NCBI GenBank assembly: GCA_947166385.1
Contig: CAMVEB010000011.1
Span: 1-64,000, forward strand
DNA from: an uncultured Clostridia bacterium
GTDB taxonomy: Bacteria; Bacillota; Clostridia; Christensenellales; Aristaeellaceae
Reading direction: 5' to 3'
DNA length: 64,000 nucleotides
The stretch's first letter is position 1. The number at the start of each line of letters is the position of its first letter. The translations under genes were made by a program, and so were the position numbers. The notes beneath the pieces were generated by a model. The model saw only the letters and a list, made by a program, of their open reading frames with translations. It was not told where the DNA came from and searched no databases. Positions 49,259 to 53,187 of the stretch are shown here, in pieces.

Positions 49259-50644
49259 ATGTGGAAACGCTATGTGGGCAGTAAGGCTTTTTATAAGGGT
49301 GTACTCACCCTGCTGATCCCGATCATCGTGCAGCAGTTTATTTCTTCCTTTGTTTCCCTGCTGGACAATATCATGGTCGGCAGTCTCGGTACGGAGTCAA
49401 TCTCCGCCGCCTCCATCAGCAACACCGTGCTCACCGTCCATATGCTGGCCGTCTTCGGCGGTCTCAGCGGCGCAAGCATTTTCGGTGCCCAGTTTTTCGG
49501 TAAGGGTGATATGGACGGGATGCGCCATACCTTCCGTTTCAAGGTGTACTTCGGCGTTGTATGTACGGCCGTTGCCATCCTGGTGTACGCGCTCTTCGGC
49601 GATTCATTCCTTCGCTCCTTCCTGCAGGGGGAGAGCAACGGCGGAGATTTGGAGCTGACGCTACGCCAGGGCTCCGGCTATCTGCGCATCATGCTGTGGG
49701 GGCTCCTGCCCTTTACCCTCGTGCAGGTCTATGCCGGAACCCTCCGGGAGTCCGGGCAGACCACCGCGCCCATGGTCGCCGGCATCTGCGCCATCCTGAC
49801 AAACCTGTTCCTGAACTGGGTTCTGATCTTTGGACATCTGGGCGCGCCGTCTCTGGGGGTGGAAGGCGCCGCCATCGCCACCGTCATCTCCCGCTATGTC
49901 GAGCTTCTGATCGTTGTCATCCATTCCCACCGGCATACGGATCGCTATGTCTTCCTGTACGGTGCCTATCGGAGCGGCTTTGTGCCCCGCAGGCTCATCG
50001 GGAAGATCACACGCACCGGCCTGCCCCTCCTGATCAACGAAATCCTCTGGTCCCTGGGTATGACCTTTATCAACCAGTTCTATTCCACCCGCGGGCTGAA
50101 TGCCGTCGCCGCGCTCAACATCACCGGTACCGCATGGAACCTCTTCTGCGTCATTATGTTCGCTATGGGCAGTGCGGTTTCCATCATGGTCGGGCAGCGC
50201 CTTGGCGCCGGCAAAATGGAGGAGGCCCGGGATGTGGACAGAAAACTGATCGTCCTGACCGAGGTCATCCATATTCTGATCGGTCTGGCCATGATCGTCT
50301 TTTCTCCCCTGGTTCCGCGCCTGTATAACGTCGGAGAAGAGGTCCGGGAGCTCACCCGGCAAATGCTGGTGGTCGCCGGTCTCTCGCTCCCGCTTCATTC
50401 CTTTGCCCATGTGACCTATTTTACCATCCGCTCCGGCGGCCGCACCGTGATCACCTTCTTCTTCGACGCGGTCTACACCTGGTGTGTAACAGTGCTCGTG
50501 GCTTTCCTGCTCACGCGGTATACGGATCTGTCTATCATTCAGATCTATTTCTGCGTCCAGTTTATTGATATCATCAAACTCATCCTGGGCCTGCTTATGC
50601 TCCGGTCTGATTTCTGGGCCCGCAATGTGGTCAGGGACGACTGA
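49259..50644 (+). CDS. MATE-family efflux transporter
   Basis: 461 aa with twelve hydrophobic helices in two similar halves. SSFVSLLDNIMVGSLGTESISAAS is a typical first-helix region and VAALNITGTAWNLF the matching one in the second half. It exports drugs or metabolites with a sodium or proton gradient. The broken GH5 locus begins 19 nt after its stop codon. Confidence 0.92.
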   Translation: MWKRYVGSKAFYKGVLTLLIPIIVQQFISSFVSLLDNIMVGSLGTESISAASISNTVLTVHMLAVFGGLSGASIFGAQFFGKGDMDGMRHTFRFKVYFGVVCTAVAILVYALFGDSFLRSFLQGESNGGDLELTLRQGSGYLRIMLWGLLPFTLVQVYAGTLRESGQTTAPMVAGICAILTNLFLNWVLIFGHLGAPSLGVEGAAIATVISRYVELLIVVIHSHRHTDRYVFLYGAYRSGFVPRRLIGKITRTGLPLLINEILWSLGMTFINQFYSTRGLNAVAALNITGTAWNLFCVIMFAMGSAVSIMVGQRLGAGKMEEARDVDRKLIVLTEVIHILIGLAMIVFSPLVPRLYNVGEEVRELTRQMLVVAGLSLPLHSFAHVTYFTIRSGGRTVITFFFDAVYTWCVTVLVAFLLTRYTDLSIIQIYFCVQFIDIIKLILGLLMLRSDFWARNVVRDD

Positions 50645-50662
50645 ACCGGGAGGAATCAACCC

Positions 50663-51199
50663 ATGAAAAGAATCAGGAAGATCGCCACAGTCATCAGTCA
50701 GGGATTCCTGCCGACTCTCTGTGCGGCAGTGCTGCTGCTTTGCTGCGCCGCGCATCCCGCCTGAGCGGAGGCGCCGGCGCGGCACGCCAGGCCTTCCGTA
50801 AACGGGCGCCTCCATGTGGAAGGCTCGCAGCTGGTGGATGCCTCCGGCCAGCTTGTACAGCTGCGGGGCATGAGCACTCACGGGCTTGTCTGGTATCCGG
50901 AAATGGTCAGCGAAAACCTGTTTCGCCAGCTTTCCGAAGACTGGAACTGCAATCTGATCCGCCTCGCCATGTATTCGATATCCTATCAAGAGAAAAAAAC
51001 GCGCGCCGAAAGCCTGCGCCTGATGCGTAAAGGCATTGAAGCGGCCGTCGCCGCCGATACCTATGTAGTGGTAGACTGGCATATCGTATCGGACGGCGAT
51101 CCAAACGAGTATAAAGCGGAAGCCATCGAATTTTTCGACCTGATCGCTTCCGAGTATGCGGACTGCCCAAACCTGATTTTTGAGATTTGCAATGAACCG
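50663..51199 (+). pseudogene. Truncated GH5 endoglucanase fragment with in-frame stop
   Basis: Starting at the ATG at 50663 (GGAGG upstream), the frame encodes a signal peptide (MKRIRKIATVISQG to LLLCCAAHPA), then TGA at 50762-50764. The same frame then continues as a glycoside hydrolase family 5 N-terminal half: LVDASGQLVQLRGMSTHGL, LIRLAMYS, VVVDWHIVSDGDPN and FEICNEP with the acid/base Glu. The second half of the GH5 fold, with the nucleophile Glu, is absent; after NEP the sequence becomes a glycosyltransferase. Either a decayed gene or an assembly chimera. Confidence 0.85.
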
Positions 51200-52857
51200 C
51201 CGGATCTCCTGCGCAAAATGCTCAATGGCTGCATTCATATGAAATATCCAGACCCGGCAAAAGTGCATATCTGGCTCTGCGATGACCACCGCCGCGCAGA
51301 AATGCGCGCCCTGGCGGAAGAAATGGGCGTCGGCTATTTCGACCGGCCGGACAATAAAGGTGCGAAAGCCGGCAATCTGAACCATGCCCTGAGGCTGACT
51401 TCCGCCCCCTATATCGTCAGCTTTGACGCGGATATGATTCCGCGTAGCGATTTTCTGCTGAAAACCATTCCGTATTTTGTAGATGCGGAGCTGTGGGAAC
51501 AAAGCCGGCCGGAAGCGGAACGGCTTCATCTGGGCCTCCTCCAGACGCCCCAGTGCTTTATGATCCGGATGTGTTTCAGCATGCGCTGTACTGTGAAAAG
51601 CGTGCGCCCAACGAGCAGGATTTCTTCTACCGCACCATTGAGCCGGCGAAGACGGCCACCAACAGCGTCATCTACCGCGGTTCCAACACAGTCCTCTCCC
51701 GCCGAGCTCTGGAAGATATCGGCGGATTCTATACGGAGTCCATCACCGAAGACTTTACAACCAGCCTCCTGATCGAGTCGGCCGGCTATGTCAGCCTCGG
51801 CCTGTCAGAGCCCCTGGCCAGCGGGCAGACACCGCATACCTTCCGGGAGCATATCCAGCAGCGTACCCGCTGGGGGCGCGGGGTCATCGTCACGGCAAGG
51901 AAGCTGAGAATCCTGCGCCGCAGGGAACTGACAGTCGCTCAGAAGGTCAGCTACCTCAGTTCGGTCACATACTGGTATTCCCCGCTGAAAAATCTGGTTT
52001 ACCTGCTGTCCCCGCTGCTCTACGCGGCATTCATGATTCCGGTCTTCCGCTGTAACTGGCTGGAGTTGATGGCCTTCTGGCTCCCGATGTTCATCCTGCA
52101 GGATATGAGCCTCCGACTGAACAGCCGCAACACGATCTCCGTAAAGTGGAGCGGCATCTACGAAACCAGCGTTATGCCCCACCTGCTCATTCCGATCCTG
52201 AAGGAAAGCATGGGCATCACTTTGTCCACCTTCAAGGTCACGGACAAGTCCGGCGCCGGCAGGGAGCGGAAGCGGGATCTCCGGATGACCCTTCCCTTCC
52301 TCTGTCTGATTGCGCTATCCCTGGCCGGCATCGTCCGGGTGTTGTGGAATTTCAATGTCATGCAGATCATCAGCCTGCTGATTCTGCTCTTCTGGATCGT
52401 GCGTAATCTCTATTATCTGGTCATGGCTGTCTTTCTGGTAGATGGCCGCGATTCCGATGGCGAAGTTGTGAAGGTCACTGATGCGGAGCTTGTCCAGGTC
52501 ACGGCTGGCGGAAAAATGTATGACGGCGTGACAACGCTCCTGGCAGAGCACAGCCTGACAGTTTTCCTCGATGAAGCGGAGGATATGAAAACCGGTGCGT
52601 CCGTGGATGTGGAAATCACCCAAGATTCCGCCGCCACCAGGGTCAGCGGCGTGGTCACCGGTGTCCGGGAATCCCGTCGTGGCACTTCCCGTACCCATAC
52701 GGTGGAAATTCTGGATGACCTCGGCAACGGCATGGAATATCTCCAGCTCCTGTATGACAGGGTTCCGACCCTCCCGCAGTCCCTGCACCGGGATTTCGGC
52801 GCATTATATGATTTCTGGCAGAACATCGCTCACCGCGTCGGGCGTACCGCACGCTGA
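51191..52857 (+). pseudogene. Cellulose-synthase-like GT2 with PilZ domain, N-terminus lost, frameshifted
   Basis: Begins inside NEPPDLLRKMLNGC. GT2 motifs are kept: WLCDD, FDADM (DxD), ITEDF and QQRTRW, followed by about five membrane helices and a C-terminal PilZ-like domain (VDGRDSDGE, then a beta-rich stretch) that would bind c-di-GMP. The N-terminal membrane helices are missing. The frame is broken at 51557-51559, where adding one T to TTT would restore CFYDPDVFQ. The downstream part is open from about 51493 to 52857. It resembles BcsA-type polysaccharide synthases of Clostridia. Confidence 0.85.
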
Positions 52858-52881
52858 ACACGGCAAAGAAAAAGTGAAAGG

Positions 52882-52912
52882 AAAAACAGGGGATAACTCG
52901 TCCCCTGTTTTC
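52882..52912. terminator. Bidirectional terminator
   Basis: A perfect 11-bp stem AAAACAGGGGA / TCCCCTGTTTT with a 7-nt loop, ending the GT2 locus on plus and the rpsF-ssb-rpsR operon on minus. Confidence 0.9.
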
Positions 52913-52929
52913 TGTTTCCTGTAGGTTGA

Positions 52930-53187
52930 TCAGTCCACTGTATAGGGCATCAGCGCGATGGCACGGGCGCGCTTGATGGCCTCGCTCAGCTGGCGCTGAT
53001 GCTTGGCGCAGTTGCCGCTCATCCGGCGGGGCAGGATCTTGCCACGCTCATTGGTGAAGCGACGCAGGCGATTGATATCCTTGTAGTCAATGTACTCAAT
53101 CTTATCGACACAGAAGCTGCAAACCTTCCGGCGGGGACGGCGTCCTCCGCGGGGGCGCGGCCTTCTTTCGCCACGATCTTCAGACAT
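52930..53187 (-). CDS. rpsR: 30S ribosomal protein S18
   Basis: 85 aa. The core [32 protein letters not shown] and the C-terminal [19 protein letters not shown] are standard S18. The N-terminus is unusually Arg-rich ([14 protein letters not shown]). The CxxC is present, so this is the zinc-binding (C+) form or keeps its Cys pair. It is the last gene of the operon. Confidence 0.97.

Follow-up and report, generated by a model that had tools for sequence, protein, structure and literature searches.

The window analysed here is a 64,000-nucleotide stretch of DNA (positions 1 to 64,000 of contig CAMVEB010000011.1, assembly GCA_947166385.1) from an uncultured Clostridia bacterium of the Aristaeellaceae. 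In it, the region 50663-52857 reads as a GH5 endoglucanase that runs straight into a cellulose synthase-like GT2 glycosyltransferase. How did such a gene arise, and what did its intact ancestor encode? A sequence-only reading had proposed that a neighbouring pair of cellulase and synthase genes was joined at an Asn-Glu-Pro (NEP) motif present in both, either by microhomology deletion or by mis-assembly. The comparison with relatives presented here points elsewhere: the feature is very probably what remains of a gene for a single-chain GH5-GT2 membrane enzyme, in a copy that decayed recently and was probably acquired.

The junction is as had been described. A single frame (P0001, from 50765) crosses it, coding for GH5 up to FEICNEP and then directly for GT2 (PDLLRKMLNGC...), and the Pfam domains split at the same point, GH5 to the left and GT2 to the right. 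The region had also been taken as one frame throughout, which it is not: a TGA at 50762-50764 interrupts it, and a frameshift near 51557-51562 moves the last 431 codons of the GT2 protein into another frame. The parts of the gene are as follows:

50663..50761, + strand: start codon and signal-peptide remnant, from by-eye comparison with the N-termini of the intact genes L102 and L103
50762..50764, + strand: in-frame TGA, a nonsense lesion at the end of the signal peptide, read from the sequence
50765..51190, + strand: N-terminal half of the GH5 domain (PF00150, E 7.2e-23, profile positions 1-127 of 272; 73% identity to L102)
51191..51199, + strand: NEP junction, breakpoint of an in-frame deletion of about 1.0 kb (some 335-337 codons gone); the match of an intact relative to this genome skips from query residue 201 to 534
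51200..51556, + strand: first part of the GT2 catalytic domain, in the GH5 frame (PF00535, E 2.8e-10; 88% identity to L102)
51557..51562, + strand: approximate place of the frameshift, from comparison with L102
51562..52857, + strand: C-terminal part of GT2 with channel helices and PilZ-like domain, in the other frame, stop included (PF13632, E 1.8e-15; 81% identity to L102)

Recoding of the TGA was ruled out, because TGA (50642-50644) also terminates the neighbouring MATE gene. With this stop and the frameshift, the window copy has no open frame from start to stop. It is a pseudogene with three lesions, an in-frame deletion, an in-frame TGA and a frameshift, and is not expected to make a functional product.

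The gene is whole in two of the 44 other genomes of the genus, many of which are incomplete. These two copies (G034, 1088 residues from stop to stop, and G013, 1062 residues) each consist of a single open reading frame (ORF), in which a signal peptide, a complete GH5 barrel and membrane helices precede the GT2 synthase. The nearest relatives of the window gene are fused ORFs (81% and 78% identity across the GT2 part), and a tree joins the window pieces to the two same-genus copies with a support of 100. When an intact relative was searched against the window genome at E 1e-20, its residues 41-201, 534-658 and 656-1087 of 1088 gave the sole matches, and nothing in the rest of the assembly matched the removed middle stretch well (best E 0.075). 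Judged from these sequences, the ancestor of the window gene is one gene, for a predicted single-chain GH5-GT2 protein of about 1,060 residues. Relatives of the GT2 part were then taken from a scan of one genome per species (the best 80 of 109 confirmed stretches), and GH5 and GT2 lie in one ORF, of 1,019-1,252 residues from stop to stop, in 75 of these 80 loci.

The proposal that adjacent, separate GH5 and GT2 genes were lost through one microhomology deletion is highly improbable in the light of these relatives. It accounts for the coincidence of the deletion ends with two NEP motifs, and a GH5 gene does adjoin GT2 in two of five unfused relatives; but those GH5 neighbours are distant (25% identity in G253, no BLAST match at 1e-5 in G454). 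Adjacent intact GH5 and GT2 genes occur only in such distant, unfused relatives, whereas the close ones, with which the window pieces group, carry one fused gene.

Alignment of the window to L102 and L103 places the breakpoint inside the NEP codons. Both intact genes still have what the window lacks, their NEP sites being 1005 and 1011 bp apart. The deletion runs from the GH5 NEP to the YNEP of GT2 and, as had been supposed, took out the latter half of GH5 together with the membrane helices preceding GT2. In each gene 10 identical bases are common to both sites (spacing and shared bases were calculated by script for L022, which is the same gene as L102, and otherwise read from the letters). 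A microhomology route is compatible with these shared bases, but it is not demonstrated by them. Exceptional microhomology at the NEP sites was rejected, since 10-base direct repeats are numerous in the gene (27 pairs in L022) and at least 9 bases are common to both sites in only 21 of 68 relatives. In all 68 measurable family members (the motif pattern is unmatched in the other seven of 75) the sites are 966-1023 bp apart. The sequence-only reading had reasoned that an intact fused protein in related genomes would speak against its model; relatives do carry the GH5-GT2 fusion as such, but none of the 68 measurable members has the NEP-NEP junction of the window.

If the assembly were at fault, a short repeat would have made the contig miss about 1 kb of a gene that is in reality intact, and the stop and the frameshift would be base errors. 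The window genome is in 96 contigs, the intact relatives do have 10-bp matches at both NEP sites, and the G034 assembly has a split rpsF match, so such assemblies may carry errors. However, a 10-bp match is far shorter than usual assembly word lengths, and all three separate lesions are in a single gene, whose neighbours SMC, MATE, rpsR, ssb and rpsF are intact. Near-invariant sites are altered too, and the missing stretch is without a good match in the rest of the assembly. We therefore consider an artefact improbable. A different suggestion, that the shortened protein is a new functional enzyme with half a GH5 barrel, would agree with the in-frame deletion, the single frame across the junction and a low ratio of nonsynonymous to synonymous substitution rates (dN/dS). 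Against it, the frame is broken by the stop and the frameshift, half of the barrel with the nucleophile and all three helices before GT2 are lost, and the junction occurs in 0 of the 68 measurable members; its probability is close to nil.

We turn now to how a decayed copy of the fused gene came to this position. It is located between two intact genes:

49259..50644, + strand: MATE-family transporter, left flank (matched in 41 of 45 genomes of the genus; product named from its translation)
52930..53187, - strand: rpsR, right flank, with ssb and rpsF beyond (all three named from their translations)

The MATE-rpsR interval (window 50644-52930) is a variable site within the genus. The MATE and rpsR matches are separated by 52-76 bp in G011, G034 and G067, with orientation unchanged, and by 126 bp in G063, where MATE is inverted. 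In 22 of the 45 genomes, among them that of the window, MATE and ssb lie on the same contig, with a gap of 337-409 bp in five and of 1.3-15.7 kb in the rest. In G034, MATE adjoins rpsR at this site and the intact fused gene is located elsewhere. This adjacency in relatives, together with the G034 copy elsewhere, makes it most likely that the window copy was gained at a variable site and later decayed, a history that is favoured over repeated loss elsewhere, not proven. The GC content across the gene (0.54-0.59) is similar to that of its surroundings and uninformative on transfer. The decay looks recent, dN/dS against the intact copies being near that between them. Of 165 near-invariant positions, however, 5 are altered, and as many are altered in just one of the 75 intact members. 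Elsewhere in the genus, 44 C-terminal residues of a family member survive in G021 among other neighbouring genes (L104:8854-8985), probably a second decayed copy. The rpsF of G034 matches as two overlapping pieces (L133:3738-3954), which suggests a frameshift, perhaps an assembly error.

What, then, is the intact family? Record titles place the fused loci mainly in Lachnospiraceae, Erysipelotrichaceae, Ruminococcaceae or Oscillospiraceae and unplaced Clostridiales, with four Actinomycetota loci and one Fibrobacter (L101), and many of them name ruminant gut samples. The start codons of the 75 members were chosen by script, and L074 and L101 extend past the right contig end. The other five of the 80 loci are either cut by a contig end (L040, L064, L072) or interrupted, L067 by one stop and one frameshift and L075 by a single in-frame stop that falls after GH5 and before the membrane helices. 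Among 79 genomes of the genus of L041 (Butyrivibrio sp. XPD2002), nine have a nearly full-length fused gene, two of them with one internal TGA, one has a partial gene at a contig start, and six match with an unfused synthase of 789 residues at 45% identity. The family to which the genome of L046 belongs (140 genomes) gave six nearly full-length genes and two partial ones. On plasmids, 280 records match parts of the intact protein P0003, none at 80% coverage, and in PHROGs two families of unknown function match the GT2 part only.

In a tree built without L074 and L101 the fused members form one clade against two unfused rows; with two distant outgroups only, this is weak evidence of one fusion event. 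The genome of L083 (G470) has a fused gene, an unfused synthase (one TAA within the match) and a stand-alone GH5 (56% identity to the GH5 of the query) from which the fused domain may derive. GH5 and GT2 distances among the 75 members correlate (Mantel r 0.62, 0 of 999 permutations), and we discounted this, since it is expected of one inherited unit and shared ancestry alone gives the same.

Both active sites are conserved. In an alignment of 67 proteins (A1), which omits eight of the 75 (L032, L050, L073, L074, L096, L098, L099 and L101) because the start was unclear, another row was close, the reference had a stop or one end was open, the GH5 residues R89, H130, N167, E168, H227, Y229, E255 and W289 are invariant, as are the GT2 motifs DD, DxD, TED, QRxRW and FxVTxK (gating loop). 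E168 and E255 are the two catalytic glutamates. Membership of GH5 is clear from PF00150, which scores 201.9 on intact P0003 against a cut-off of 23.5, is the sole GH family above cut-off in the four intact members scanned, and is covered for its first half only by the window copy. The nearest solved structures to the GH5 part are of Bacillus-type Cel5A, and entries titled 'family GH 5-2' match, subfamily 2 being a candidate placement.

The GT2 part has the motifs of a BcsA-like processive enzyme. An AlphaFold model of an intact relative shows a Cel5A-like GH5 barrel, three membrane helices, and the BcsA fold of GT2 with channel helices and a PilZ-like barrel. In three intact members TIGR03030 (BcsA, UDP-forming cellulose synthase) scored 340.3, 361.4 and 338.1 bits, below its cut-off of 699.1. 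The PilZ domain that had been read in the window stands as a barrel in the predicted fold and not as a Pfam match, of which there is none in the window pieces or the four intact relatives scanned, and its cyclic di-GMP (c-di-GMP) motif is degenerate. The first arginine of RxxxR is present in 74 of 74 members and the second in none, and [DN]xSxxG occurs in 4 of 74 (counts omit L074), which is not the pattern of a c-di-GMP-binding PilZ domain. In the four unfused relatives checked, RxxxR strings occur within the last 190 residues, unaligned to the PilZ site. With this motif broken across the family, c-di-GMP probably does not gate the activity as it does in BcsA.

The unfused relatives suggest what the fusion brings together. 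In three of five a separate GH5 or GH8 gene stands beside the synthase: in G454 a GH5 gene immediately follows GT2 and belongs to a ccs-like set that includes MBOAT and AlgX-like genes, G253 has a GH5 gene after GT2, and G223 a GH8 gene before it. The ccs operon of Clostridia, as presented in passages of PMC7710045, pairs the synthase CcsA with the GH5_25 endoglucanase CcsZ, a separate GH5 to which cleavage is assigned. The likeness lies in a Gram-positive BcsA-like GT2 paired with a GH5 endoglucanase, and G454 has a gene set of this kind. The family differs in that synthase and GH5 form one polypeptide, GH5 being N-terminal and nearest to Bacillus Cel5A/GH5-2-type structures, whereas CcsZ is likened there to the Thermotoga Cel5A type (PMC7710045). 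In place of a separate ccsZ beside ccsA, GH5 lies in the ORF of GT2 in the 75 of 80 loci. The separate cutters of the unfused relatives and the cleavage role of CcsZ (PMC7710045) make it most likely that the fusion unites a synthase and its cutter, with polymerisation inside, threading through the channel and cutting outside.

Recurrent neighbours of the fused loci are few. The commonest cluster, an ABC ATPase by sequence, is found at 17 of 75 loci, and a STAS-containing cluster at nine. STAS genes adjoin the fused gene at L045:3705-4001, L041:7355-8527 and L056:7353-8507, two of the three scanned being joined to an APH-type phosphotransferase domain; they may hint at regulation. Among 10 scanned neighbours of fused loci there was no MBOAT or AlgX-like gene; ccsB was not searched for.

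The intact enzyme would thus consist, in order, of a signal peptide, an extracellular GH5 endoglucanase, three membrane helices, a cytoplasmic BcsA-like processive GT2 with its channel helices, and a PilZ-like barrel. GT2 would polymerise UDP-glucose into a beta-glucan, cellulose or possibly mixed-linkage glucan, and its own channel would carry the polymer to the outer face, where the tethered GH5 would cut or trim the emerging chain. One molecule would in this way do the joint job of the BcsA or CcsA synthase and the separate BcsZ or CcsZ hydrolase.

Several observations weigh against this account of the window gene and its family. No activity of any GH5-GT2 member was found in the literature searched, and in two of the unfused relatives, G134 and G161 (the neighbours of the latter compared by BLAST only), no GH gene stands beside GT2. 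A hydropathy count over the 75 members gave four hydrophobic segments between the domains in 37, three in 29, five in six and two in three; with four rather than three in 37 of 75, the three-helix topology depends on the AlphaFold model. The motif [DN]xSxxG is also absent from all four unfused relatives checked. In 398 phylum-wide genomes, with at most two candidates scored per genome, no fused gene was among the matches listed except the window's pieces, GH5 and GT2 being matched separately, which makes the family a narrow one. Finally, dN/dS is 0.130 for the pair of intact copies and not clearly higher when the window pieces are compared with each of them (0.127 and 0.170). Amino-acid singletons number 50 in the window, and 35 and 59 in those two copies; values so near those of intact genes imply that decay was recent or that some constraint persisted.

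Compared with BcsA of Rhodobacter and E. coli (PDB 4P00, 9B8V), the family has the same GT2 core, gating-loop motif, channel helices and PilZ-like barrel. Unlike BcsA it has a GH domain, lacks RxxxR and falls far under the TIGR03030 cut-off, and the first membrane helix of BcsA appears to be replaced by the signal peptide and GH5. RiGT2 of Romboutsia ilealis, likewise a Clostridia BcsA-like GT2 with a PilZ domain, is a (1,3;1,4)-beta-glucan synthase active without c-di-GMP in the tests of PMC10374906, so a similar GT2 can make mixed-linkage glucan; it differs in that RxxxR is present, and GH5 goes unmentioned in the main text of that paper. The pseudomonad Orphan/NdvB proteins have a comparable plan, an extracytoplasmic N-terminal TIM-barrel glycosidase, helices and a BcsA-like GT2 in one chain, and are proposed to make cyclic beta-(1,3)-glucan; their glycosidase is GH17, and they have no PilZ domain (PMC10237404), so that the GH5-GT2 family, with its PilZ-like barrel, is of another class. 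In tunicates CesA-GH6 joins a cellulase and a cellulose synthase in one polypeptide, with a GH6 that is C-terminal and in animals, and was reported in 2019 as a fusion with no counterpart in public databases (passages of PMC6523144). Other fusions described in such passages are BcsAB (PMC9693552) and BcsAB and BcsZC (PMC7112194). Among the papers listed by the literature searches (titles, abstract openings and passages, within freely accessible papers) no description of a GH5-GT2 fusion was found.

By parallel with the GH17-GT2 proteins proposed as cyclic-glucan synthases, one may speculate that the family is a c-di-GMP-independent, self-contained polymer machine, whose retaining GH5 acts on the exiting chain to give chains of set length or, by transglycosylation, rings. 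We regard this as possible but rather unlikely. If true, gut bacteria would secrete defined beta-1,4-type glucan oligomers or rings instead of cellulose fibres.

To our knowledge, why a cellulose maker requires a cellulose cutter is an open question. The single-chain form, with both active sites invariant in 67 proteins, fixes their ratio at 1:1 and probably sets the cutter at the channel exit, which makes the question directly testable. The window copy illustrates a GH5-GT2 gene in decay at a variable site, and as a pseudogene it is ordinary; what is new, as far as the literature searched goes, is the intact bacterial GH5-GT2 family, a variation on the synthase-plus-hydrolase theme and a prokaryotic parallel of the tunicate CesA-GH6 fusion.
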